Shown here: in pieces, positions 16,112 to 39,857 of the stretch
How the letters are laid out: the number at the start of each line of letters is the position of its first letter
Numbering within the stretch: position 1 is the first letter of the stretch
Translations under genes and position numbers: made by a program
Notes under the pieces: model-generated
The model's database searches: none
The model's input: only the letters and a program-made list of their open reading frames with translations
Told to the model about the DNA's origin: nothing
Assembly (NCBI GenBank): GCA_945888325.1
Contig: CAMDAC010000004.1
Span: forward strand, 1 to 64,000
Direction of reading: 5' to 3'
From: Candidatus Sulfopaludibacter sp. SbA3
GTDB taxonomy: Bacteria; Pseudomonadota; Alphaproteobacteria; Caulobacterales; Hyphomonadaceae
Length of the DNA: 64,000 bases

Positions 16112-17446
16112 TTACTTCGGGTGAAGCACGACCGGCATCCAGGTATAGCCGCGCACGAAGGCGCCGGACGTATAGGACGGCTCGGCCAGCACTTCGATAT
16201 GGTCGTAGCGGGCCATCAGCTCTTCCCAAAGGATCTTCAGCTGCAGCTCGGCGAGGCGGTTGCCGACGCAGCGGTGGATGCCGAAGCCGAAGGAAAGGTG
16301 CTGGCGGGCGTTCTTGCGGTCGATGATGAAGTCTTCCGGATTTTCCTTCCAGAAGTTGGTGTCGCGGTTGCCCGAGACGTACCACATGGCGATCTGCTCG
16401 CCTTTCTTGATCGTCTTGCCACGGATTGTCACGTCTTCCAACGCGGTGCGGCGCATGAAGGACAGCGGCGTCTGCCAGCGGATCGTCTCCGACACCATGT
16501 TCGGGATCAGCTCCGGATCCGCCTTCAGCTTCTTGTACTCTTCCGGATACTTGTTCAGCGCATAGACCGAGGCGGTCATCGTGTTGCGGCTCGTGTCATT
16601 GCCGCCGACGATCAGCAGGATGACGTTGCCGAGCAGTTCCATCGGCGTCATGTTCTTGGTCTTGTCGCCGTGCGCGAGCAGGCTGATCAGGTCGCCATTC
16701 TCCGCTTCTGCGCCGCGTTGCTGGAACAGGCCCATGAACGTGGTCAGGCACTGCATCATTTCCTGTTTCCACTGCACTTCGCCGCCGGGGCAGATGTCGG
16801 GGTTGTGCATGTTGGTGGCGATGTCGGACCAGCGGGTCAGCTCGCGGCGGCGTTCCTGCGGATAGCCGAACAGGGTGGCGAGCATCATGCCGGTCAGTTC
16901 GATCGAGACGCGGTCGACCCAGTCGAACGGCTCGCCGACCGGCAGCCCGTCAAGCACCGCCTGCGTGCGCGTGCGGATGACGGACTCGTATTCCTTCAGC
17001 ATGTTCGGCGCGACCGCTGGCTGCACGGTCTTGCGCTGCTCGGAATGGCGCGGCTCGTCCATCGCGATGAACATCGGCATCTCGAAATCTTCGAGCGGCG
17101 GGCCAAGGGTGATGCCGCCATACTCCCACGAGGAGGAGAAGCGCTTGTGGTCGGTATCGACCGCCATGATGTCTTCGTAGAGGGTGACTGACCAGTACGG
17201 GCCGACGAAGCTGTCCGGCGTGTAGTGGACCGGGTCTTCCTTGCGAAGGCGCTCCAGGCGGTCCCAGAACTTGCCCTGGCGCCACATCTCCGGATCGACG
17301 ACGTCCAGCGTTTCGAGGGCGAGTTCGGAAGCCGGGCGCACATGGCCGAAGGTCTCGGTATAGCCAGGGTGCATCGGTTCGCGCGGGGTGACTTTCGGGC
17401 GCTCGAGGGCAGGGTGGTTCTCGAAGGAGAAGGTATCGGCAGCCAT
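16112..17446 (-). CDS. Cytochrome P450, CYP153-like (alkane/fatty-acid hydroxylase type)
   Basis: 444 residues from the ATG at 17444-17446, preceded by CCGGAGG. The P450 landmarks are present: I-helix GGNDTSRN near residue 257, ExxR in SETIRWQTPL near 297, and the heme-binding loop FGFGIHRCVGNRLAELQ near 390. WQTPLSFMRRTALED, MWYVSGNRD and the heme loop closely resemble soluble bacterial CYP153 enzymes, which hydroxylate the terminal carbon of medium-chain alkanes and fatty acids. No ferredoxin or ferredoxin reductase gene is adjacent, so electron-transfer partners must be elsewhere. The CYP153 assignment comes from remembered motifs. Confidence 0.85.
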   Translation of the reverse strand: MAADTFSFENHPALERPKVTPREPMHPGYTETFGHVRPASELALETLDVVDPEMWRQGKFWDRLERLRKEDPVHYTPDSFVGPYWSVTLYEDIMAVDTDHKRFSSSWEYGGITLGPPLEDFEMPMFIAMDEPRHSEQRKTVQPAVAPNMLKEYESVIRTRTQAVLDGLPVGEPFDWVDRVSIELTGMMLATLFGYPQERRRELTRWSDIATNMHNPDICPGGEVQWKQEMMQCLTTFMGLFQQRGAEAENGDLISLLAHGDKTKNMTPMELLGNVILLIVGGNDTSRNTMTASVYALNKYPEEYKKLKADPELIPNMVSETIRWQTPLSFMRRTALEDVTIRGKTIKKGEQIAMWYVSGNRDTNFWKENPEDFIIDRKNARQHLSFGFGIHRCVGNRLAELQLKILWEELMARYDHIEVLAEPSYTSGAFVRGYTWMPVVLHPK

Positions 17447-17563
17447 GGAAAATCCTCCGGTGTCTGGCCCATCTGCGGGGCGATTGAACATTCCGGATTC
17501 TATTTATCACACCCCGTTTCACAAATCCATGACGCCTGCGTCATTTTTGTGAGATTGCGCAGG

Positions 17564-27828: not shown

Positions 27829-29244
27829 ATGTTGCAACAGCTTGGCCAACTACCGATGGGCTGGCTGCTGATCGCGCTGATCGCGGTCTTCGGCTCTGCA
27901 GCATTCTTCATGGGCCGCGTGCGGGCCGAGCGCCTGCTGGTCTCGACCACCTCCCGGATGCACTCGCGCCCCAACTACCACGGCTATTACGTCGCCATGT
28001 GGGCCACCGTCCCGGTCGTTCTCGTCGCCATGGCCTATGCCATCTTCGCCGAGGACCTTACGCGCAGCCAACTTACGCGCGAGTTGCCGTCCTCGTTTGC
28101 GCGCCTGTCACCTGTGGAGCTGCAGAGCTACCTTGAGTCGGTGCGCATGGCGGCCGGTACCGCAGCGAGCGCGGGAGCAGACCGGGTATTCCAGGCGATC
28201 ACCAACCGGTATCTCGAACTGCGCGGCCTCGTGAATACGGGTACGCTGGTGCTGCTCGGCCTGCTGGCCGCAGGCGGTATCTTCTTCGCGCAGCGCCGTC
28301 TCCAACCGAATTTCCGTGCGCGGGCCTTCGTCGAGAACGGCATGCAATTCGTGCTGTTCTTGTGCGCCGGTGTGGCGGTTGCAACCACGGCCGGCATCGT
28401 GCTGTCGCTGCTCTATGAAAGCCTCCTGTTCTTCCAGAAGGTGTCCGCCTGGGACTTCCTGACCGGCACCCGCTGGAACGCGCAGACGGAAGCCGAGTTC
28501 GGCGCGCTGCCGCTGTTCTTCGGCACCTTCATGATCGCGCTGATCGCCATGCTGGTGGCCGCGCCGATCGGTCTTTTCTCCGCGATCTTTCTCTCCGAAT
28601 ACGCCTCGCCGCGCGCGCGTGCCTGGATCAAGCCGATCCTCGAGATTCTCGCCGGTATCCCGACGGTTGTGTACGGCTTCTTTGCGCTGCTCGTGGTCGC
28701 ACCCGGTATCCGGACGGCAGCGATCTGGTTCAACGAAACCGCCATCCGCTTCGGCCTTGCGAGCGAACCGATCCTGGCCGCGCAGCCGACAAGCGCACTG
28801 GCCGCGGGTCTCGTGATGGGGATCATGGTGATCCCGTTCGTGTCTTCCCTGTCAGATGACGTGATCAACGCCGTGCCGCAGACCCTGCGTGATGCCGCCT
28901 ATGCTCTGGGCGCGACGAAATCCGAAACCGTGAAACAGGTTGTTGTCCCGGCCGCCCTGCCGGGCATCATCGCGGCCTTGCTGCTGGCCGTGTCCCGCGC
29001 CATCGGCGAAACGATGATCGTGGTGATGGCGGCGGGCAAGAGCGCGCGCATCTCGATGGATCCGACGTCGGACCTGACGACCATCACGGTACAGATTGTC
29101 TCGCTGATGACGGGTGAGACCGGCTTCGATGACCCGAAGACGCTCTCGGCCTTTGCGCTTGGCCTGGTGCTCTTCATTGTGACCCTCGCGTTCAACGTCG
29201 TCGCCCTGCGCGTCGTCAAGAAATACCGTGAAAAATATGACTGA
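27829..29244 (+). CDS. pstC: Phosphate ABC transporter permease PstC
   Basis: 471 residues, much longer than the roughly 320 of E. coli PstC because of an N-terminal extension with two more hydrophobic segments (residues 10-30 and 55-75) and a soluble stretch. The permease core is typical: FFGTFMIALIAMLVAAPIGL near 222, ILEILAGIPTVVYGFFAL near 270, and the EAA loop ALGATKSETVKQVVVPAALP near 360. With PstA it forms the inner-membrane channel of the high-affinity phosphate importer. First gene after the Pho box; its 3' end overlaps pstA. Confidence 0.93.
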   Translation: MLQQLGQLPMGWLLIALIAVFGSAAFFMGRVRAERLLVSTTSRMHSRPNYHGYYVAMWATVPVVLVAMAYAIFAEDLTRSQLTRELPSSFARLSPVELQSYLESVRMAAGTAASAGADRVFQAITNRYLELRGLVNTGTLVLLGLLAAGGIFFAQRRLQPNFRARAFVENGMQFVLFLCAGVAVATTAGIVLSLLYESLLFFQKVSAWDFLTGTRWNAQTEAEFGALPLFFGTFMIALIAMLVAAPIGLFSAIFLSEYASPRARAWIKPILEILAGIPTVVYGFFALLVVAPGIRTAAIWFNETAIRFGLASEPILAAQPTSALAAGLVMGIMVIPFVSSLSDDVINAVPQTLRDAAYALGATKSETVKQVVVPAALPGIIAALLLAVSRAIGETMIVVMAAGKSARISMDPTSDLTTITVQIVSLMTGETGFDDPKTLSAFALGLVLFIVTLAFNVVALRVVKKYREKYD

Positions 29245-30817
29245 TACCGTCCGCACCTCGGCTCCCAGCGCGGCTGCGGCCAAGCACCTGAAGCGCCGCC
29301 GCGCTGCGGATGGCCGCTTCCGCTATTACGGCCTCACCGCGATTTTCGTGGCCCTCGGCGCGCTTGCCGTGCTGGTGCTGACGATCGGCACGCAGGCCTT
29401 CTCGGCGGCGACCTATAATGTCGTCAAATATGAAGTGACGCTTGATCCTGCGGTGATTGCACCGGAGGGCGCCAACCGGCCGGCCGATATCTCGCGCAAT
29501 GTCGAAGGCTTCTACAGCCTTGTGCGCGATGAACTTCTGACGACCTTTCCGGAAGCCGAAGCGGACCGGGTCTCCCGCCGCGAGCTGTCGGATTTCGTCA
29601 CGCGTCTGGCGGTGCTGCCTACGGCGCGCCTCGTGGCAAACAATCCCGAACTTGTCGGCAACACGATCACGCTGACCGCGCCGCTGAACGACGACCTCGA
29701 CCTTTACCTCAAGGGGCAGGGCGTCAAGGAACGCAAGATCAAGGCCGGCACGGTATCGTCGGTCCAGGGCGAAGAAGACGGCACGTTCCGCCTTGCGGGC
29801 GCTGAAGCGTTTGAGGCGGTCGTCACCGGTCTCGCCGTCGCGAGCGTCGACCGCGCCGAAGATGCGGGTCAGCCAGACGTGCTGCTCACTGCCGGCGTCT
29901 CGACTGGACGGCTGACGGACATCGATGCCGGATCGGCACGGATGGAGCTGTTGACGGGCCGGGCGCAGGATTTTGCGCAGGCACGTCCCACCGCGCGGAT
30001 CATCGTATCGGCTGAAAGCGAGCGCACGATTTCGGACCGTCAGATCGCCTGGGTGCTCGCGCTCAAGGAGATGGGCCGGGTGGACCGGGTGCCGCGCTGG
30101 ACGCTCCTGACCAACTCCGACAGTACGTACCCTGAGCTTGCAGGCGGCCTCGCCGCTATTGTCGGTTCGCTGCTGACAATGCTGATCACCGCGCTGGTCG
30201 CCATGCCGATCGGCATCCTCGCGGCGGTGTATCTGGAAGAATTCGCGCCGCGCAACCGGCTGACCGAGTTCATCGAGGTCAACATCAACAACCTCGCCGC
30301 TGTGCCGTCCATCGTGTTCGGCCTGCTCGGCGCCGCACTCTACATAAACTTCCTCGGCATGCCGCGATCGGCGCCGCTGGTCGGCGGCCTCGTGCTGGCC
30401 CTGATGACCTTCCCGGTGGTGATCATCGCCTCGCGCGCCGCGCTGAAGGCGGTGCCCCCGTCCGTGCGCTCCGGAGCGCTCGCCGTCGGCGCTTCGCAGA
30501 TGCAGACGGTGTTCCACCACGTGGTGCCGCTGGCTGCCCCGGGCATCCTGACGGGCGCTATCCTCGGCATGGCCCGCGCGCTCGGCGAGACGGCGCCGCT
30601 GCTGTTGATCGGCATGGTGGCCTTCGTCGGCGACGTGCCGCGCAGCCCGACCGACGAGTCGACCGTGATGCCGGTGCTGATCTTTAGCTGGTCGAACAAT
30701 GCCGAACGGGCCTGGGAGCCCTTGACCTCAGCGATGATCGTCATCCTGCTGGCCTTCCTTTTGGTTATGAACGGCCTCGTGGTATTCCTGCGGCGCAAGT
30801 ACGAACGGAGATGGTGA
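29237..30817 (+). CDS. pstA: Phosphate ABC transporter permease PstA
   Basis: 526 residues from the ATG at 29237, overlapping the pstC stop by 8 bases; a GTG at 29228 is possible. The first 60 residues include one transmembrane helix, followed by a soluble insertion to about 295 (DUF3333-type, as in many alphaproteobacterial PstA proteins). The permease core follows with [20 protein letters not shown], the EAA loop [20 protein letters not shown] and [16 protein letters not shown]. Partner of PstC. Confidence 0.92.
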
Positions 30818-31641
30818 TGGATACGACCCAGGGAACGCCCGCGATGATGGACGACACGCTCACACTCCCGCGCGCAGCAGACGGTGCTCCTCGAATTGAT
30901 TGCCGCAATATCAAGGTGTTCTACGGCGAAGCGCAGGCGATCCATGACGTGTCGATGACCTTTCCGGACCGCGCCGTAACGGCGCTGATCGGGCCGTCGG
31001 GCTGCGGCAAGTCCACCTTCCTGCGCTGCCTCAACCGGATGAACGACACGATCGAGAACTGCCGCGTCGAAGGCGAGATCCTGATGGACGGCGAAAACAT
31101 CAACGACGAGGACGTCGATCCCGTGCTGTTGCGCTCGCGCGTCGGCATGGTGTTCCAGAAGCCGAACCCGTTTCCGAAATCGATCTATGACAACATCGCT
31201 TACGGCCCCCGTATTCACGGGCTGGCCAACGGCCGCGAAGACCTCGACGCCATTGTCGAGAAAAGCCTGCGCCGCGCCGGCCTGTGGGAAGAGGTGAAGG
31301 ACCGCCTCACTGCGCCGGGCACCAGCCTTTCCGGCGGCCAGCAACAGCGCCTTTGCATCGCGCGCGCCATTGCGGTGCAGCCGGAAGTGATCCTGATGGA
31401 CGAGCCCTGTTCGGCCCTCGACCCGATTGCCACCGCGCGGATCGAGGAACTGATCGACGAATTGCGCAACCGCTACTGCATCGTCATCGTGACGCACTCC
31501 ATGCAGCAGGCCGCCCGCGTGTCGCAGCGCACGGCCTTCTTCCACCTCGGAAATCTCGTGGAAATGGGCGATACCAACCAAATCTTCACCAACCCGCGCG
31601 AGAAGCGCACCGAAGACTACATCACCGGCCGGTTCGGTTGA
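30817..31641 (+). CDS. pstB: Phosphate ABC transporter ATPase PstB
   Basis: 274 residues from the ATG in TGATG at the pstA stop, with GGAG eight bases upstream; an in-frame ATG at 30811 is less favourable. Walker [11 protein letters not shown]-loop [20 protein letters not shown], signature [16 protein letters not shown], Walker [14 protein letters not shown] and H-loop [12 protein letters not shown] are all present. It drives phosphate import and, through PhoU, helps signal phosphate status. Confidence 0.96.
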
Positions 31642-31652
31642 GCGAGGTACGC

Positions 31653-32339
31653 ATGTCTGATCATATCGTTTCTGCCTATTCCGAAGAACTCGAGCGGCTG
31701 TCGGCCGAAATCATGAAAATGGGCGGCATTGTCGAAACCATGATCGTGGATTCGACGCGGGCACTGTCGGCAAATGACCTTGAACTCGCCCGGGCAGTGG
31801 TGGCGCGCGACCCGCTGGTCGACGCCATCGAATCCGACGCCGAGCGGCAGATCGTGTCGCTGATAGCGCGCCGCCAGCCGATGGGTCATGACCTGCGGAT
31901 GATCCTCTCGGCGATGAAGATATCGAGCGAGCTGGAGCGGATCGGCGACCTTGCAAAGAACATTGCCAAGCGCGCGCAGCGCCTGGACGAGAACGTCAAC
32001 GACGAGATGCGCAACGCCATCGTCCGGATGTCGAAGCCCGTGTCGCGCCAGCTCAACAACGTCCTGAACGCCTACGCGTCCGCAAGCCCCGATAAGGCCA
32101 AGGTCGTCTGGGAGTCGGATGACGACATCGACAACCATTACAATTCCGTCTTCCGCGAAATGCTGACCTATCTGGTCGAGGACCCGCGCCGCATCACGGC
32201 GGGCGCGCACATGCTGTTCATGGCGAAGAACCTTGAGCGGATCGGGGATCACTGCACGAATATCGCCGAGTTTGTTTATTACCAGGTCGTCGGGGACTAC
32301 CTCTCCGAACTCGAACGGCCGAAACAGGATCAGGTTTAA
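31653..32339 (+). CDS. phoU: PhoU, phosphate signalling protein
   Basis: 228 residues from the ATG at 31653, 11 bases after pstB. Two tandem three-helix PhoU domains are visible, each with the acidic metal-binding pattern: ISSELERIGDLAKNIAKRAQ near residue 88 and AKNLERIGDHCTNIAEFVYY near 192. PhoU couples PstB to the PhoR kinase and lowers PhoB activity when phosphate is plentiful. No phoR is found in this window. Confidence 0.95.
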   Translation: MSDHIVSAYSEELERLSAEIMKMGGIVETMIVDSTRALSANDLELARAVVARDPLVDAIESDAERQIVSLIARRQPMGHDLRMILSAMKISSELERIGDLAKNIAKRAQRLDENVNDEMRNAIVRMSKPVSRQLNNVLNAYASASPDKAKVVWESDDDIDNHYNSVFREMLTYLVEDPRRITAGAHMLFMAKNLERIGDHCTNIAEFVYYQVVGDYLSELERPKQDQV

Positions 32340-32378
32340 GCCCTTGAAGGGCCGCGCCTACAGAATGGAGCCGACCCA

Positions 32379-33065
32379 ATGAAACCGTATGTGCTGATCG
32401 CAGAAGACGAGAAGGCCGTTTCGGAGCTCTTGCTCTACAATCTCCGCAAGGAAGATTACGATGTGGGCGTCGCTGGCGACGGCGAAGAGACGCTGATCAT
32501 GCTCGACGAGCGCACGCCGGACCTGCTGCTGCTGGACTGGATGCTTCCGAAAGTGAGCGGAATCGAGATCTGCCGGCGCGTGCGCACCGGGGGCGGCAAT
32601 CCCAACCTTCCGATCATCATGCTGACGGCGCGCGGCGAAGAGAGTGACCGGATTCGCGGCCTTGATACGGGTGCGGACGATTATGTGACCAAGCCGTTCT
32701 CGACCACCGAACTGATGGCGCGCGTGCGCGCCGTGCTGCGCCGTATCCGGCCCGGCCTGAAAGAAGATCGCATCACGGTCGGCGATATCGAGATCGACCG
32801 TGTCGCCCACCGCGTGGCGCGCAAGGGGTCGGACATCCACCTCGGCCCGACGGAATTCCGCCTGCTGGATTATTTCATGCAGCACCCGGGCCGCGTGTTC
32901 TCGCGCGAGCAGCTGCTGGATACGGTGTGGGGCTCGGACGTCTATGTCGAGGCGCGCACGGTGGATGTGCATGTCGGGCGCCTGCGCAAGGCGCTTCGCA
33001 ACGGCGGCGGGGATGATCCGATCCGCACCGTGCGCTCGGCCGGTTACGCCTTGCGCGAGGACTGA
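32379..33065 (+). CDS. phoB: Phosphate regulon response regulator PhoB
   Basis: 228 residues. The receiver domain has the acidic pair (IAEDE), the phospho-acceptor Asp in LLLLDWMLPKVSGIEICRR, and Lys in DYVTKPFST. The C-terminal OmpR-type winged helix (LGPTEFRLLDYFMQHPGRVF and EARTVDVHVGRLRKAL) binds Pho boxes. It is the last gene of the operon, so activation via the box at 27767 would be positively autoregulated. PhoR, its usual kinase, must lie elsewhere. Confidence 0.95.
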   Translation: MKPYVLIAEDEKAVSELLLYNLRKEDYDVGVAGDGEETLIMLDERTPDLLLLDWMLPKVSGIEICRRVRTGGGNPNLPIIMLTARGEESDRIRGLDTGADDYVTKPFSTTELMARVRAVLRRIRPGLKEDRITVGDIEIDRVAHRVARKGSDIHLGPTEFRLLDYFMQHPGRVFSREQLLDTVWGSDVYVEARTVDVHVGRLRKALRNGGGDDPIRTVRSAGYALRED

Positions 33066-33936: not shown

Positions 33937-34758
33937 ATGGCGAAGAAACCCGTGAAATCCACCCAGGCAAAAGCCCGCGCAAAAGCGGCCGCTGTCGGCA
34001 AGAAAGTCGAAGCCCAGTCGACCGAGATGGCTTACAAGATCTGGCTCGCTGGCGTTGGCGCTTATGGCAAAGCCTACGATACGGCGGTTGCCGGCGCGAA
34101 CGTGCTGAACAAGCAATCGGCTGACGTCTTCGAAGATCTCGTGAAGCGCGGTTCGGAAATCGAGCACGATGTCCGCGCCAAACTCGCCGCCGACGAGCGT
34201 GTGGCCGGCGCCTCCAAGCGCGTTTCGAAAACCATCGAGACCGTGCGCGACATGCAGGTGCAGGCCCGCGATCAGTTCGACGCACGCCTTGACCGGATGC
34301 GCGACCTGCTCGGCGTCAAAGGCCTTGCCGATGTGCGCCAGAAAGTCGCCCGCCAGATCGACAAGCTGGAAGACGAAGTCGCCAGCGTCACCTCGAAAGC
34401 CCGCGCGAAAGTTGCAGACTCCGACCTGAAGGCACGCCTGGCGCGTCTCTCGGCCGAGATCGAAGCTGTCGCCGGCGAGACCGGTGCAGAAGTTGCCAGG
34501 ACGGCCAAGAAAGCTGCCCGCAAGACCACGAAGGCCGTGAAAACCGCGTTCGCGGCTTCGGAAGGTGCTGACGACCTGACGCAGGCCACCGGCATCGGCC
34601 CGGCGCTGGCCAAGAAACTGAACGCTGAAGGCCTGACGCGCTTTGCGCAACTGGCCGCACTGAAGAAGGCCGAACTGGAAGCGCTCGACGCGAAAGTGGC
34701 TGGCCGTGGCCGCGTGGCGAAAGCCGAATGGTCGAAACTTGCGAAAGCCGCCGCGTAA
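33937..34758 (+). CDS. Phasin (PhaI/PhaF type) with C-terminal helix-hairpin-helix
   Basis: 273 residues from the ATG at 33937 after AAAGGAG. A basic Lys/Ala-rich N-terminus leads into the phasin domain EMAYKIWLAGVGAYGKAYDT (residues 30-49), close to the KIWLAGIGAY core of Pseudomonas PhaI/PhaF, then long amphipathic helices up to residue 165 and a KKAARKTTKAVK stretch. The last 55 residues (ATGIGPALAKKLNAEGLTRF onward) are a helix-hairpin-helix of the ribosomal L21/topoisomerase-linked type. Phasins coat polyester granules; the basic and helix-hairpin-helix parts suggest DNA contact, like PhaF, which ties granules to the nucleoid. Part of the PHA cluster. Confidence 0.8.
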   Translation: MAKKPVKSTQAKARAKAAAVGKKVEAQSTEMAYKIWLAGVGAYGKAYDTAVAGANVLNKQSADVFEDLVKRGSEIEHDVRAKLAADERVAGASKRVSKTIETVRDMQVQARDQFDARLDRMRDLLGVKGLADVRQKVARQIDKLEDEVASVTSKARAKVADSDLKARLARLSAEIEAVAGETGAEVARTAKKAARKTTKAVKTAFAASEGADDLTQATGIGPALAKKLNAEGLTRFAQLAALKKAELEALDAKVAGRGRVAKAEWSKLAKAAA

Positions 34759-34770
34759 CGAAGACGGAAG

Positions 34771-34794
34771 AGGGCGGGCCGGTCGGTTCGCCCT
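34771..34794. terminator. Hairpin between phasin and phaD-like gene
   Basis: AGGGCG (34771-34776) pairs with CGCCCT (34789-34794), with a further CC/GG pair inside. It lies between the convergent stops, followed by a pyrimidine-rich stretch. Likely a bidirectional terminator; the stem is modest. Confidence 0.45.
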
Positions 34795-35426
34795 TATCCT
34801 TTCGTTTCGTCGAAATGTCGGATCATGCGGCCGAGTGCGGCCGGGCCGGTCTCGCCCATGTAGGGCACCATCAGGCACATCACCTGGAACACCGTCTTGT
34901 GGATGAGGGCAGGGCCGTCATGGACCTCTTTGGTCAAGGCATCGCCGGCGAGCCAGAATGTCAGTGTCGTGATGATCTGGTCGATCAGCGGCTCCCTGAG
35001 GCGCTTGTCGACGGTCAGTGGTCCAGCCTTTTCCAGATCGCTGAGGATCCGTGCAATCGTCTGGCGTTTGGCGGCAACGAGGCTGCGGAAGCGGATGGCA
35101 AGGTCCGGATAGCGGGCCAGCAGGCCGGCCAGGTCGCGGTAGAAGAAGCGGAAGTCGTAAATCTCTTCCAGCAGGATGTAGATGTAGACCCAGTTGTCCT
35201 CGATCGAGGCCAGGCCGCCCTTCGAGCCGCGCAGGATGACGCGCATCTCTTCTTCGAACCGGTCAAACAAGGCCCGGTTGATCGCGTCCTTGCCCTTGAA
35301 GTGATAGTAAAGATTACCGGGGCTGATCTCAAGCGCATTGGCAATATCGACAGACGACAGCCCGCTTTCTCCTTCCTCGTTGAAGAGAAGGAGGCTGACT
35401 TCAAGTATACGGTCCCGTGTTTTCAT
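34794..35426 (-). CDS. TetR-family regulator, PhaD-like
   Basis: 210 residues from the ATG at 35424-35426; a GTG two codons earlier is possible. The start MKTRDRILEVSLLLFNEEGE and the ISPGNLYYHFKGKDAIN helix-turn-helix closely match Pseudomonas PhaD, the TetR-like regulator of medium-chain-length PHA clusters. The C-terminal half (WVYIYILLEEIYDFRFFYRD) is the PhaD-type ligand-binding region, whose ligand in Pseudomonas is thought to be a beta-oxidation intermediate. It is divergent from phaC, with a palindrome right before its start. Confidence 0.82.
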   Translation of the reverse strand: MKTRDRILEVSLLLFNEEGESGLSSVDIANALEISPGNLYYHFKGKDAINRALFDRFEEEMRVILRGSKGGLASIEDNWVYIYILLEEIYDFRFFYRDLAGLLARYPDLAIRFRSLVAAKRQTIARILSDLEKAGPLTVDKRLREPLIDQIITTLTFWLAGDALTKEVHDGPALIHKTVFQVMCLMVPYMGETGPAALGRMIRHFDETKG

Positions 35427-35435
35427 GGCCACACG

Positions 35436-35459
35436 GTCAGTTTGACACCGAAATCTGAC
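35436..35459. promoter_or_regulatory. Candidate PhaD-type operator
   Basis: A 24-bp dyad with arms GTCAG-N-TT and AA-N-CTGAC (7 of 8 outer positions symmetric), 10 bases upstream of the regulator's start and about 125 bases upstream of phaC. Its position suits autoregulation of the TetR gene and control of the divergent phaC-phaZ genes. Confidence 0.5.
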
Positions 35460-35584
35460 TGTGAAACGAATTTTGTGAGTAAATTTACCACGGTCTTTTT
35501 GCCGGATGGCAAGGGACCTGAATTAGACCGGCCACTGGCAGGCCCCTGCCAGGAGAGACCGGCGGGCATCTGGGAGGGACTGGA

Positions 35585-37273
35585 ATGAGCACACCTAAGG
35601 ACGAAATCGCCCAGAATGCGGCGCAGAGCACAACGGCCCTTAACCCGTTGCTGGGCGGCATTAACCGGCAGGAATTGCTGGGCGCCGTGGCGATGATGCT
35701 GCGCTCGTCGGTCACCAATCCGGTGACGACCGCCAAGGCCGCCCGCAAGATTGTCAGCGAGAACACGCAGATCCTGCTCGGAAAGTCGTCGCGCGAAGCC
35801 GACAAGAAGGACCGCCGCTTCAAGGACCCGGCCTGGGAGCACAACCCCTTCTACAAGCGCGGCATGCAGGCCTTCCTTGCGACCCAGGAGCACCTCCACG
35901 AGTGGGTCAGCGAGATCAAGATGAGCGAGCTGGAGCACGCCCGCGCCAAGTTCGTGATGGGCATGATCACCGACGCCATGGCGCCGACCAACACGCTGAT
36001 CGGCAACCCCGCCGCCACCAAGCGCGTCGTCGATTCCGGCGGCCTGTCGCTGCTGAAGGGCATGAAGAACCTCTATGACGACCTGACCAAGAATGGCGGT
36101 CTGCCGTCACAGGTCGACAAGCGTCCCTTCAAGGTCGGCGAGAATCTTGCCGTCTCGAAAGGCGCCGTGGTCTGGAGGAACGAAATGCTGGAGCTGATCC
36201 AGTATGCGCCGACGACGGAGAAGGTTTACAAGACGCCGATCCTGATCATCCCGCCGCAGATCAACAAGTTCTATGCTATGGACCTGACGCCGATGACGTC
36301 GATGGTGCAGTTCCTCCTCGCCATGGAACAGCAGACCTTCGTCATCTCCTGGCGTAATCCGTCCAAGGAGCATCGCGGCTGGGGCCTGTCAGATTATATC
36401 GACAGCCTGATTCAGGCGAGCGACGTGGTCCGCAAGATCACCAAGTCGCCCAAGCTGAACGTCTCCGGCGCCTGCTCAGGCGGAATCACCACGGCGACGT
36501 TTGCGAGCCTCCTCGCCGCAGCGGGCGACAAGCGCATCAATGCGCTGACCTTCATGGTCTGTGTGCTGAATCCTCAGAAGGAAGACAGCGACATCGGCCA
36601 GATCGTCTCCGATGGCAGCCTCGAGATTGCACGGAAAATGTCAAAAGCCCGCGGCATACTGAAAGGCGATGACCTCGCCCGGATGTTTGCCTGGATGCGC
36701 CCGAACGACCTGATCTGGAACTATGTCGTCAACAACTACCTGATGGGCGAAGACCCGCCACCGTATGACGTCCTCTTCTGGAACAATGACACGACGAACC
36801 TGCCGGCGCAGCTGCACTCGGACTATCTGGACATCGCCTTGCACCAGCCCTTCGATCATCCGGGTACGGTCGACGTGGCGGGACATATGGCCGACCTGAC
36901 GAAAGTCACAGCCGATGCGTTCGTGGTGGCCGGTCTCACGGACCACATCACCCCCTGGAAAGCCTGCTACCGAACACCCGGCCTGCTCGGCTCCAAGAAT
37001 GTCGAGTTCGTGCTCTCCTCCAGCGGCCACCTGCAGTCTCTGATCAATCCGCCGGGCAACCCCAAGGCCAAGTATTTCCGCAGCACCCAGATGAAACCGA
37101 CGCCGGACGAATGGGCCGCGAGCGCCGAGGAGCACAACGGCTCCTGGTGGCCGCGCTGGGGCGAATGGTTGAAGGAACGCTCGGGTCCGCTTAAGGCGGC
37201 TCCCGCGAGTGTCGGCACTGCTGCCTTCCCGGTACTATATGCGGCCCCGGGCCGTTACGTATTCAACGACTGA
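35585..37273 (+). CDS. phaC: Polyhydroxyalkanoate synthase, class II-like
   Basis: 562 residues with GGGAGGGAC before the ATG. The catalytic triad is placed as in Pseudomonas PhaC1: Cys297 in VSGACSGGITT, Asp453 in AGLTDHITPW and His482 in SSSGHLQSLINPPGNPKA. The GACSGG box and the GHLQS sequence are class II features; class I enzymes have GYCIGG and GHIAG. WNNDTTNLPAQLH is also conserved. The enzyme joins (R)-3-hydroxyacyl-CoA units into granules; class II enzymes prefer C6-C14 units. It is followed after 10 bases by a PhaZ homologue and flanked by phaD-like and phasin genes. Class is inferred from motifs. Confidence 0.9.
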   Translation: MSTPKDEIAQNAAQSTTALNPLLGGINRQELLGAVAMMLRSSVTNPVTTAKAARKIVSENTQILLGKSSREADKKDRRFKDPAWEHNPFYKRGMQAFLATQEHLHEWVSEIKMSELEHARAKFVMGMITDAMAPTNTLIGNPAATKRVVDSGGLSLLKGMKNLYDDLTKNGGLPSQVDKRPFKVGENLAVSKGAVVWRNEMLELIQYAPTTEKVYKTPILIIPPQINKFYAMDLTPMTSMVQFLLAMEQQTFVISWRNPSKEHRGWGLSDYIDSLIQASDVVRKITKSPKLNVSGACSGGITTATFASLLAAAGDKRINALTFMVCVLNPQKEDSDIGQIVSDGSLEIARKMSKARGILKGDDLARMFAWMRPNDLIWNYVVNNYLMGEDPPPYDVLFWNNDTTNLPAQLHSDYLDIALHQPFDHPGTVDVAGHMADLTKVTADAFVVAGLTDHITPWKACYRTPGLLGSKNVEFVLSSSGHLQSLINPPGNPKAKYFRSTQMKPTPDEWAASAEEHNGSWWPRWGEWLKERSGPLKAAPASVGTAAFPVLYAAPGRYVFND

Positions 37274-37283
37274 GGACTGCCGA

Positions 37284-38123
37284 ATGGCCAGCTACAAGCG
37301 CATGCCGGAAATCACCATGCAGGACGTCGAAGGCGTCATGCTGCGGACCGCGTATTGGGAGAAGCCCGACGGCAGCGACGCGCTGCCGCTGGTCTTCTTC
37401 AACGGCATTGGCGCAAATCTCGAACTGACACTGGCGCTGGGCGACATGTTCCCGGACCGCGAGATCCTGACCTTCGACGTGCCCGGCGTGGGCCTCAGCC
37501 CGGTCACCCAGTGGCCGTACCGCCACTGGATGGCCGCGCGCTGGGCCCGCAAGCTGAGCGACCGGCTCGGCTTCGACGTGGTCGATGTCATGGGCGTCTC
37601 CTGGGGCGGGGCGCTCGCCCAGCAGTTTGCCTTCCAGTACCGCAACCGCGTCAACCGGCTGATCCTCTGCGCTACCTCGTCGGGCATGACGATGATCCCC
37701 GGCCGCCCGGCCTCGCTGTCGCGCATGGTCGATACGCGCCGCTACACCGACCCCGAATTCATGCGCGAGAATTTCGCAACCCTCTACGGTGACCTGGCGG
37801 ACGACTCCGCCGGCCGCCACATCGACGGCCTCCTGCCGCCGGACCCGAAGGGCTACATCTACCAGCTCCTCGCCTTCGCCGGCTGGTCGAGCCTGCCGTT
37901 CATCCGGTTCCTGAAGATGCCCACGCTGGTGATGATGGGCGACAAGGACACGATCGTACCGCTGGTCAACGGCCAGATCCTCAGCTGGGCCCTGCCGGAC
38001 GCGCGCCTGCACGTGGTCGAAGGCGGCGGGCACCTGTTCCTGGTGACGCGCGCCGCCGAGACGGCCAATGTGATCAACGGCTTCCTCCGCGACCCAGCGC
38101 TGCGCGCGGCGAAAGCGGCCTAG
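37284..38123 (+). CDS. phaZ: Intracellular medium-chain-length PHA depolymerase
   Basis: 279 residues from the ATG at 37284, 10 bases after phaC. It shares FNGIGANLEL, LTFDVPGVGLS, the lipase box GVSWGGALAQQFA (Ser106) and GGGHLFLVTRA (His) with Pseudomonas PhaZ; the acid is probably in MMGDKDTIVPL. It releases 3-hydroxyacids from stored PHA inside the cell. The phaC-phaZ pair is the core of the Pseudomonas medium-chain-length PHA operon. Its stop shares CTAG with that of the convergent acyl synthetase gene. Confidence 0.88.
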   Translation: MASYKRMPEITMQDVEGVMLRTAYWEKPDGSDALPLVFFNGIGANLELTLALGDMFPDREILTFDVPGVGLSPVTQWPYRHWMAARWARKLSDRLGFDVVDVMGVSWGGALAQQFAFQYRNRVNRLILCATSSGMTMIPGRPASLSRMVDTRRYTDPEFMRENFATLYGDLADDSAGRHIDGLLPPDPKGYIYQLLAFAGWSSLPFIRFLKMPTLVMMGDKDTIVPLVNGQILSWALPDARLHVVEGGGHLFLVTRAAETANVINGFLRDPALRAAKAA

Positions 38124-39706
38124 TCGCTCATCAGGCGCTCGGCCTGCATGCGGACTGCGCCGTAATCGACCTTGCCGGTGCCCAGCACCGGTATCTGGCC
38201 TACCTTGAACACCCGTCTGGGTACGGAAATTTCCGGCACGCCGTGGCTTTGCGCCCAGGTGAGGATGGGGCCGCGTGACGCTTCCGGCGCCTCGCTAAGC
38301 AGCACGACCTGCTCGCCCTTCTTCGGGTCAGGCAGGGTGACCGCCGCGTGCATGTGATCCGGCCAGACGGCTGCGGCGCAGTTCTCCACCACCGCCAGCG
38401 ACACCATCTCACCGCCAATCTTGGCAAAGCGCTTCACCCGGCCAAGGATCTTGATGAACCCTTCGGCATCGATGTCGACGATATCACCTGTATCATGCCA
38501 GCCATCGTACAGCTTCTCGATGACACCGGGATTGGACGGGCGCAGATAGCCCATCATGATATTCGGGCCGCGGATGTGCAGGCGCCCGCCTTCCGGCATG
38601 CCCTCCACCGGCACCAGCTTCGAGTCCATCCCCGCCATCAGGCGGCCGACCGTACCCGGACGGTTGTTCTCCCACTGGTTCGCCGCGACCACGGGCGAGG
38701 CCTCCGTCGCGCCATAGCCCTCGAGAATCTCGATATTGAACTTGCGCCGCACATAGTCGCGGGTCTCGTCCTTCACCCGCTCCGCGCCGCACACGGCGAG
38801 GCGGATCGAATCCATGTCGCCATCCGCGCCGGTGCGAGCGTATTGCGAGATGAACGTGTCGGTGGCCAGCAGGATCGTCGCGCCGCTCTCGCGGATGCGC
38901 CGGACGATTTCCTTCGGTTGAAGCGGGGAGGGGTGGAAGATCACCTTGATGCCGGCGATCAGTGGTAGCAGCGCGCCGACCGTCAGGCCGAAGCAGTGGA
39001 ACGTCGGCAGCGGATTGAACACGATGTCCGTATCCGGACTAAGCCCGATATGCGCGCGCACTTGTTCGACGTTTGCCATGACGTTCTCATGGCTGAGCAC
39101 CACGCCTTTCGGCTCGCCCTCCGTGCCCGAGGTGAACAGGATCACGCCGGGCTGCTTGTGGCTGAGCGCGGCGCCGACAAAGGTCGGCAGCATCGGCCCG
39201 GCGATTGCAGAGAGCTTGTCGCCGATCGACAGTTTTTCCCGGACGTCTTCCAGGTAGATGATTTCGACCGATTTCGAGAGTTCGGAGATCAGGTCTTCCA
39301 GCCCGCCGAGTTCGACAAATTTGTGCGCCGTGATCAGCCGCTTCACCTTCGCCGCGCGCATCGCCGCCTTGAGGTTCTTCGACCCGGCCGTGAAGTTCAG
39401 CATCGCCGGCACGCGGCCATAGGCCGTCAGCGCGAAAAAGCCGATCACCGCGCCAGCCCCGGTCGGCAGCATCACGCCGACTGATTCGCCCCGCTTCGTA
39501 CCCTTCTTGAGGGCCGAGCCGAGACCGAAGACCGCCCGGATGATTTCCCTATAGGTGAGGATGCGCTCATCCCCGTCGACGAGGATGGGCTTGTCCGGAC
39601 CGAATTCCCGCGCGGCGCGCAGGAGGCCGGTAAACAGGTTGGAGCGGGTGCGTTCTGGCCGATAGACCAGTGGAGCCGGCACAAGCGGCTGGAGCGATTG
39701 CTGCAT
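38120..39706 (-). CDS. AMP-dependent acyl synthetase (acyl-ACP/acyl-CoA synthetase, Aas-type)
   Basis: 528 residues if started at the ATG read from 39704-39706; the frame continues to an ATG at 39769. The adenylation motifs are FTSGTEGEPKGVVLSHEN (P-loop), EGYGATEASPV and YDGWHDTGDIVDID, with GRVKRFAKIGGEMVSL and the C-terminal TGKVDYG lysine. The TFHCFGLTVGALLPL and PGTVGRLMAGM stretches resemble the ligase half of Aas (acyl-ACP synthetase). It activates fatty acids with ATP. Next to phaC-phaZ it may recycle acids freed by PhaZ or feed PHA synthesis, much as AlkK does for alkanoates (inference). Confidence 0.85.
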   Translation of the reverse strand: MQQSLQPLVPAPLVYRPERTRSNLFTGLLRAAREFGPDKPILVDGDERILTYREIIRAVFGLGSALKKGTKRGESVGVMLPTGAGAVIGFFALTAYGRVPAMLNFTAGSKNLKAAMRAAKVKRLITAHKFVELGGLEDLISELSKSVEIIYLEDVREKLSIGDKLSAIAGPMLPTFVGAALSHKQPGVILFTSGTEGEPKGVVLSHENVMANVEQVRAHIGLSPDTDIVFNPLPTFHCFGLTVGALLPLIAGIKVIFHPSPLQPKEIVRRIRESGATILLATDTFISQYARTGADGDMDSIRLAVCGAERVKDETRDYVRRKFNIEILEGYGATEASPVVAANQWENNRPGTVGRLMAGMDSKLVPVEGMPEGGRLHIRGPNIMMGYLRPSNPGVIEKLYDGWHDTGDIVDIDAEGFIKILGRVKRFAKIGGEMVSLAVVENCAAAVWPDHMHAAVTLPDPKKGEQVVLLSEAPEASRGPILTWAQSHGVPEISVPRRVFKVGQIPVLGTGKVDYGAVRMQAERLMSD

Positions 39707-39857
39707 CGGGTAGGGCCCTGACTCGTTTCGTCCCGTTGTTTTGTGTAACATTCTGTCATCTAGCGTCATGCAAGCAAGCGATATTGCAAGTCTGCATATG
39801 CAGCCTGCGCTATGTCACGCTTGCTGAATCGCGCGCCGGGCGCCATTTTAGGTGCCA

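Follow-up and report, generated by a model that had tools for sequence, protein, structure and literature searches.

A class II-like polyhydroxyalkanoate locus in an alphaproteobacterium of the Hyphomonas lineage

The locus and its synthase

The window analysed here is a stretch of 64,000 nucleotides (contig CAMDAC010000004.1, assembly GCA_945888325.1) from the genome titled Candidatus Sulfopaludibacter sp. SbA3, placed by GTDB in the Hyphomonadaceae and comprising 3.28 Mb in 65 contigs. It carries a polyhydroxyalkanoate (PHA) locus of five intact genes, encoding a phasin, a TetR-type regulator, a PHA synthase (PhaC), an intracellular PHA depolymerase (PhaZ) and an acyl-activating enzyme, with a palindrome between the regulator and synthase genes. 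The gene content, positions, motifs and catalytic triad (297/453/482) listed in the initial annotation were all confirmed in the sequence. The module appears to be an old branch of the class II PHA system in alphaproteobacteria, parallel to that of Pseudomonas and native to its lineage.

The phaC gene (35585 to 37273, + strand) encodes a protein of 562 amino acids, a length similar to that of pseudomonad synthases. All 16 sequences of an alignment that includes the window's share the catalytic residues C297, D453 and H482, which correspond to C296, D451 and H479 in a pseudomonad-type synthase. The label pseudomonad-type is based here on scores that exceed the class II cut-off, together with the gene order phaC-phaZ-phaC-tetR in two loci (L170 and L171); the label Burkholderiaceae-type rests partly on likeness to the phaC2 cluster of Cupriavidus pinatubonensis JMP134. 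The class II affinity proposed in the initial annotation was upheld, as the window synthase scored 700.2 bits against the class II profile TIGR01839 and 501.7 bits against the class I profile TIGR01838, a gap of 199 bits. Neither its best profile nor its placement was that of class I. The identity to pseudomonad-type PhaC was 47-49%.

Of 398 genomes sampled across the phylum, 13 were over the class II cut-off, all from one family (1024-1080 bits), and 15 more, all from the window's class, scored 601-700 bits, with the next score at 472. A draw of 289 genomes from the class gave none over the cut-off, seven at 625-704 bits, one at 548 and the others at no more than 490. In the family of a Burkholderiaceae-type genome (G576; 150 genomes), 14 scored 703-771 bits and the next 463.

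The PhaC tree comprised 90 rows including the window, picked evenly by group from 161 sequences, a set that thinning had reduced from 213 extracted frames and that includes 70 of the 80 named loci described below. A branch with a support of 100/100 divided class I from class II, with the window synthase on the class II side, inside a 50-row alphaproteobacterial clade (100/97). A placement inside class I, which the initial annotation had named as an outcome that would refute its claim, was not seen in this tree. Beside the alphaproteobacterial clade was a 19-row group (100/93) of pseudomonad-type and Burkholderiaceae-type rows together with one alphaproteobacterial row (L077). The long rows in the tree were L001, L040 and L077. 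The phylogeny supports class II membership, with the pseudomonad synthases and apart from class I, and the basal order of the class II side is less sure. The synthase of L040 and L177 (genome G226) scored 548 bits for class II, contained the box GFCAGG and was on a long branch at the class II base; a PhaZ homologue was not found within ~7 kb on either side of it. The second phaC of the host genome, on a separate contig, is class I and over the cut-off (642.3 versus 622.65 bits).

The phaZ gene (37284 to 38123, + strand) directly follows phaC, and its product contains the motifs GIGANLEL and GVSWGG and is closest to the poly(3-hydroxyalkanoate) depolymerase family TIGR02240. S106, H250 and an Asp at 220 or 222, located by motif, are presumably the catalytic residues. 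The regulator gene (34794 to 35426, - strand) encodes a protein of 210 amino acids that begins MKTRDRIL and matches PF13972 (101 bits). Its identity to the TetR proteins encoded 3' of the second phaC in L170 and L171 was roughly 38-39% (39.5% over 190 amino acids and 37.6% over 197), which marks it as a homologue of PhaD of the pseudomonad-type cluster. The homology of both PhaZ and the regulator to their pseudomonad-type counterparts, as first annotated, was thus supported.

Distribution and gene neighbourhood

A window-type phaC was present at 70% identity or more in 35 of the 37 genomes of the genus. One of the two genomes lacking it is 84% complete, and the other (99%) carries a class I gene only. 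In genomes from other families of the order, the gene was found in 12 of 24, at 56% identity or more. The best 80 of 592 confirmed stretches in named genomes are referred to as the named loci; their titles include Hyphomonas, Henriciella, Robiginitomaculum, Aquidulcibacter, Candidatus Phycosocius, Caulobacter, Marinicaulis, Kordiimonas, Tepidicaulis, Parvibaculum, Erythrobacter and Sphingomonas. The initial annotation regarded such a synthase as odd for its host. Its presence across the genus and in several alphaproteobacterial orders speaks otherwise, yet class II-like synthases are uncommon in the class overall (7 of the 289 genomes drawn). The surprise is smaller than was claimed because the system appears native to the lineage, within which inheritance was, we infer, mainly vertical.

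Two Parvibaculum metagenome-assembled genomes (L146 and L156) carry the class II-like gene; the genome paper of Parvibaculum lavamentivorans, in its available text, names one polyhydroxybutyrate (PHB) synthase (PMC3368416). Two loci with the same neighbours as the window, L090 (titled Acidobacteria) and L092 (titled Candidatus Sulfopaludibacter), encode PhaC proteins 98% and 92% identical to the window's, respectively; the title of L092 is wrong, and that of L090 probably is too. The open-licence literature consulted describes neither a class II synthase clade from Hyphomonas or any other alphaproteobacterium nor its product. The accessible part of one paper (PMC5944434) points to a Rubrimonas sequence close to the pseudomonads and raises, as speculation, the idea that class II arose in alphaproteobacteria.

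Neighbouring genes were counted in the 80 named loci by BLAST to the window proteins (E 1e-5), and the counts are depressed by short contigs and distant sequences. A PhaZ homologue was located 3' of phaC on the same strand in all 80 loci, at a distance of no more than 600 nt in 77. A TetR homologue was found in 48, of which 31 were on the opposite strand (30 upstream) and 17 downstream on the same strand; a phasin homologue was found in 43. The order phaC-phaZ-phasin-tetR on one strand, seen in 16 loci, resembles that of L170 and L171 (phaC-phaZ-phaC-tetR) minus the second phaC.

The acyl-activating gene (38120 to 39769, - strand) encodes an AMP-binding, Aas-like enzyme whose top families are Aas-type acyl-acyl carrier protein ligases, with scores under the cut-off and models that cover longer fusions. 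The initial annotation counted it as part of the system. A close homologue was found beside phaC in only 5 of the 80 named loci, all of them close to the window, and three further loci had matches of only 24-29%; it was therefore rejected as a core member and is regarded as a neighbour. A looser association of acyl synthetases with PHA loci is possible, because L175 and L178 have 24-25% matches directly before phaC and two Burkholderiaceae-type clusters of the neighbouring clade have a different AMP-binding gene next to phaJ.

Directly upstream of the PHA locus is a set of phosphate uptake and control genes (27829 to 33065; pst transport genes, phoU and phoB, named by reading); whether PHA storage is linked to phosphate limitation would be testable. 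Homologues of phoU and phoB are likewise upstream in L090-L093, L095, L097 and L173, and were not found within 6.9 kb upstream in L121. A dienelactone-hydrolase family gene (PF01738; 33099 to 33800) is situated between phoB and the phasin gene and is present in all nine Hyphomonas loci compared. The CYP153-like P450 that had been reported in the window (16112 to 17491, - strand) was confirmed, its best solved relative being CYP153A7 (482.5 bits); seven P450 matches are present in the host genome. A role of this enzyme in PHA supply was considered and rejected, as nothing beyond nearness (~16 kb from the locus) connects the two.

The phasin tail and a candidate operator

The phasin gene (33937 to 34758, + strand) encodes a protein with the motif KIWLAGVGAY, in which a PhaF/PhaI-type granule-binding domain (residues 22-152) is followed by a brief Lys-rich segment and, at the C-terminus, a helix-hairpin-helix tail (~205-273). 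The front of the protein carries the PF05597 domain typical of PhaF (39.8 bits, cut-off 28.8), the sole match to this family in the genome. On the tail, PF14520 (HHH_5) scored 20.0 bits in the window, under the cut-off of 27, and 29.6 bits in the Hyphomonas locus L121. The helix-hairpin-helix tail was present in all 30 genus loci (L003-L032), by a pattern composed after the tails had been read. The window phasin does not have the histone-like Lys/Ala/Pro tail of PhaF. In the sister lineages, the phasins at this place had a Lys/Ala/Pro-rich tail in five of five loci (L098, L099, L101, L102 and L103); L096, L100 and L104, the last a short locus, yielded no phasin. A Lys/Ala/Pro-rich tail was also seen in L128, L129 and L179, and neither tail type in many other loci (Aquidulcibacter, Phycosocius, Caulobacter). 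A rule applied to the last 60 residues did not score the phasins of L170 and L171 as Lys-rich; the likeness of tails at this locus to that of PhaF therefore rests on the review cited below and not on a count.

PhaF binds DNA through a histone-like domain and Caulobacter PhaH through a helix-hairpin-helix domain, according to the available text of PMC13052382. Against the PhaH family NF045508, the window phasin scored 47.9 bits (cut-off 250), over residues 133-270 only, and no protein of the host genome exceeded this cut-off. A search for PhaH elsewhere in the genome led to two other such tails, which belong to other proteins, one of them resembling ribosomal protein S1 by reading. The window phasin may thus be described as a PhaF-type front joined to a PhaH-type tail, for which the simplest reading would be one tail exchange on the branch to Hyphomonas. 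These phasins represent a natural experiment on the tethering of granules to the chromosome: at the same locus, the same granule domain carries one or the other of two unrelated tails, both presumed to bind DNA. Separately, two phasin-like genes flank phaC-phaZ in L119, L122, L123, L125-L131, L134, L138-L140 and L144; the gene after phaC-phaZ is mostly Lys-rich, and the pair recalls PhaI and PhaF.

The intergenic region between the divergent tetR and phaC genes was aligned for the window and 47 loci, with some genomes present twice. A single conserved block was identified, a 28-bp imperfect palindrome (GTTTGACA-N12-TGTGAAAC) at 35440 to 35467. The exact pattern occurs once in the whole genome, with two more places at two mismatches compared to one in the control. 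When up to three mismatches were allowed, the window contained three matches, two of which are the same site on its two strands, and none of 100 shuffles reached three. The palindrome is kept in 29 of the 30 genus loci (the exception being L021) and, with one position relaxed, is also present in six sister-lineage loci (L098-L103); it was not present in L096 or L104. As an operator for the window TetR it is the leading candidate, both its binding and the sign of the control being predicted. The palindrome and the phasin tail difference are the new details of this analysis.

Proposed system, its product and known relatives

The preferred reading, to which we assign a probability of about three in four, is that the locus is a complete Hyphomonas carbon-storage module and belongs to an old branch of the class II system in alphaproteobacteria. 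PhaC would polymerise (R)-3-hydroxyacyl-CoA on a granule coated by the phasin, the tail of which would probably tie the granule to the nucleoid, and PhaZ would free monomers from the granule. The PhaD-like regulator is proposed to control phaC and its own gene from the palindrome between them. Monomers would come from beta-oxidation through an (R)-enoyl-CoA hydratase whose gene lies outside the locus; in the rest of the genome, three MaoC-type matches exceed the Pfam cut-off and are candidates for PhaJ. The separate class I synthase would make short-chain polymer alongside. We regard the branch as old and native because the synthase is under the class II cut-off, has limited identity to pseudomonad-type PhaC, falls in its own alphaproteobacterial clade, is present across the genus and is paired with phaZ.

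Several observations weigh against this reading. The synthase is under both curated cut-offs (855.4 for class II and 622.65 for class I), and PhaZ, at 216.6 bits, is under that of TIGR02240 (250.6). The tree is rooted at its midpoint, and the branch uniting the two class II-side groups without L040, where long branches meet, has a support of only 87/75. By BLAST, a TetR match was absent in 32 of the 80 named loci and a phasin match in 37. The predicted phasin structure is of low confidence (mean pLDDT 62.7), and its best Foldseek match was a Y-family polymerase (E 0.22). The window's sole full palindrome match is at phaC, which leaves joint control of the phasin unsupported. Finally, base composition varies: of 19 genes in the comparison, tetR is lowest in GC (0.583), the phasin gene lowest in GC at third codon positions (GC3; 0.734) and phaZ highest in GC3 (0.925). 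The GC3 of phaC (0.837), in contrast, is within the range of 14 genes outside the locus (0.739-0.861) and favours the preferred reading.

The product is less certain than the module. At positions 325, 477, 481 and 484 (pseudomonad numbering), the window PhaC has Cys, Ser, Gln and Ile; engineering at E130, S325, S477 and Q481 is reviewed in PMC3815930, as far as its available text goes. Gln481 is present in 125 of 125 clade rows, compared to Ala in 33 of 33 class I rows. Cys325 is present in 29 of 29 further genus rows and in 67 of the 84 distinct clade rows outside the genus. Ile484 is present in 18 of the 29 genus rows (Leu in 11) and in six of the 84 outside the genus (Leu in 78).

That the locus is a true Pseudomonas-like medium-chain system, storing C6-C14 hydroxyacids only, possibly derived from alkanes through the CYP153-like P450 in the window, is the strongest of the alternatives and is considered unlikely. 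The class II placement of PhaC, the TIGR02240 affinity of PhaZ, the PhaD homologue and the retained Gln481 agree with it. The pseudomonad-type rows, however, have Ser325 and Leu484 in 15 of 15, and no medium-chain precursor gene was seen among the five locus genes. Furthermore, the available text of PMC4636328 describes JMP134 PhaC2 as class II by tree, carrying Ile484, active on 3HB-CoA and inactive on 3-hydroxyoctanoyl-CoA. The class of a synthase by sequence does not settle its monomer type, and class II membership does not guarantee a C6-C14 preference, as this enzyme shows.

The same enzyme is the model for a slightly less probable alternative, in which the window PhaC combines a class II body with short-chain activity and would make PHB or poly(3-hydroxybutyrate-co-3-hydroxyvalerate) (PHBV) alongside the class I enzyme, as a second synthase under different regulation. 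Ile484 is common to the window and JMP134 PhaC2, and is present in 12 of 14 Burkholderiaceae-type rows (Val in two). This residue is, however, unfixed in the genus and mostly Leu in the clade outside it, and Cys325 is the commonest letter of neither class I (Thr) nor the Burkholderiaceae-type rows (Ala). The depolymerase and the regulator are similar to their counterparts in medium-chain systems, and the PHBV of the sphingomonad Caenibius does not support this alternative, because the accessible part of PMC9027588 assigns the synthases of that organism to class I. A recent horizontal transfer of a pseudomonad pha cluster, suggested by the overlapping gene content and the edge-of-range composition of tetR, phasin and phaZ genes, is scarcely credible and was rejected in view of the tree, the identity, the genus-wide presence and the ordinary GC3 of phaC, in line with the earlier view that the locus is not a simple recent copy.

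Returning to the preferred reading of an old native module, a medium-chain polymer from the window PhaC is possible, and a broad or mixed short- and medium-chain range would be our best guess. We tentatively propose, at somewhat less than even odds, a fuller account: class II-type storage may be old and largely native in alphaproteobacteria, with its own, probably mixed, monomer range, and on the Hyphomonas branch a PhaF-type phasin may have swapped its histone-like tail for a PhaH-like helix-hairpin-helix, in a genome without a PhaH over the cut-off. The class of a synthase is often taken as its monomer type, and a large alphaproteobacterial branch on the class II side whose letters differ at two specificity-linked positions makes this rule testable and provides enzymes for mixed polymers.

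Compared to known systems, the locus shares with the class II pha cluster of Pseudomonas (read through L170 and L171) homologous PhaC, PhaZ, PhaD-type TetR and PF05597-like phasins. It differs in having one synthase in place of two flanking phaZ, a divergent upstream tetR, an upstream phasin gene, a PhaC under the class II cut-off and a helix-hairpin-helix phasin tail. The JMP134 phaC2 cluster (PMC4636328, available text) and the Burkholderiaceae-type loci L210 and L211 resemble the window in their single class II-like synthase, PhaZ-like hydrolase and Ile484, with a phasin in L210. Unlike the window locus, these clusters place a MaoC-type phaJ next to phaC and have synthases of the neighbouring clade; the phasin of L210 is of the Phasin_2 type. 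The C-terminal helix-hairpin-helix domain of the phasin is shared with Caulobacter crescentus PhaH (Salinas et al. 2023, via the available text of PMC13052382), whereas its granule domain is of the PF05597 type. Conversely, Pseudomonas putida PhaF (via the same source) has, like the window phasin, a PF05597-type granule domain and a presumed DNA-binding tail, which is a histone-like domain in PhaF and a helix-hairpin-helix in the window.

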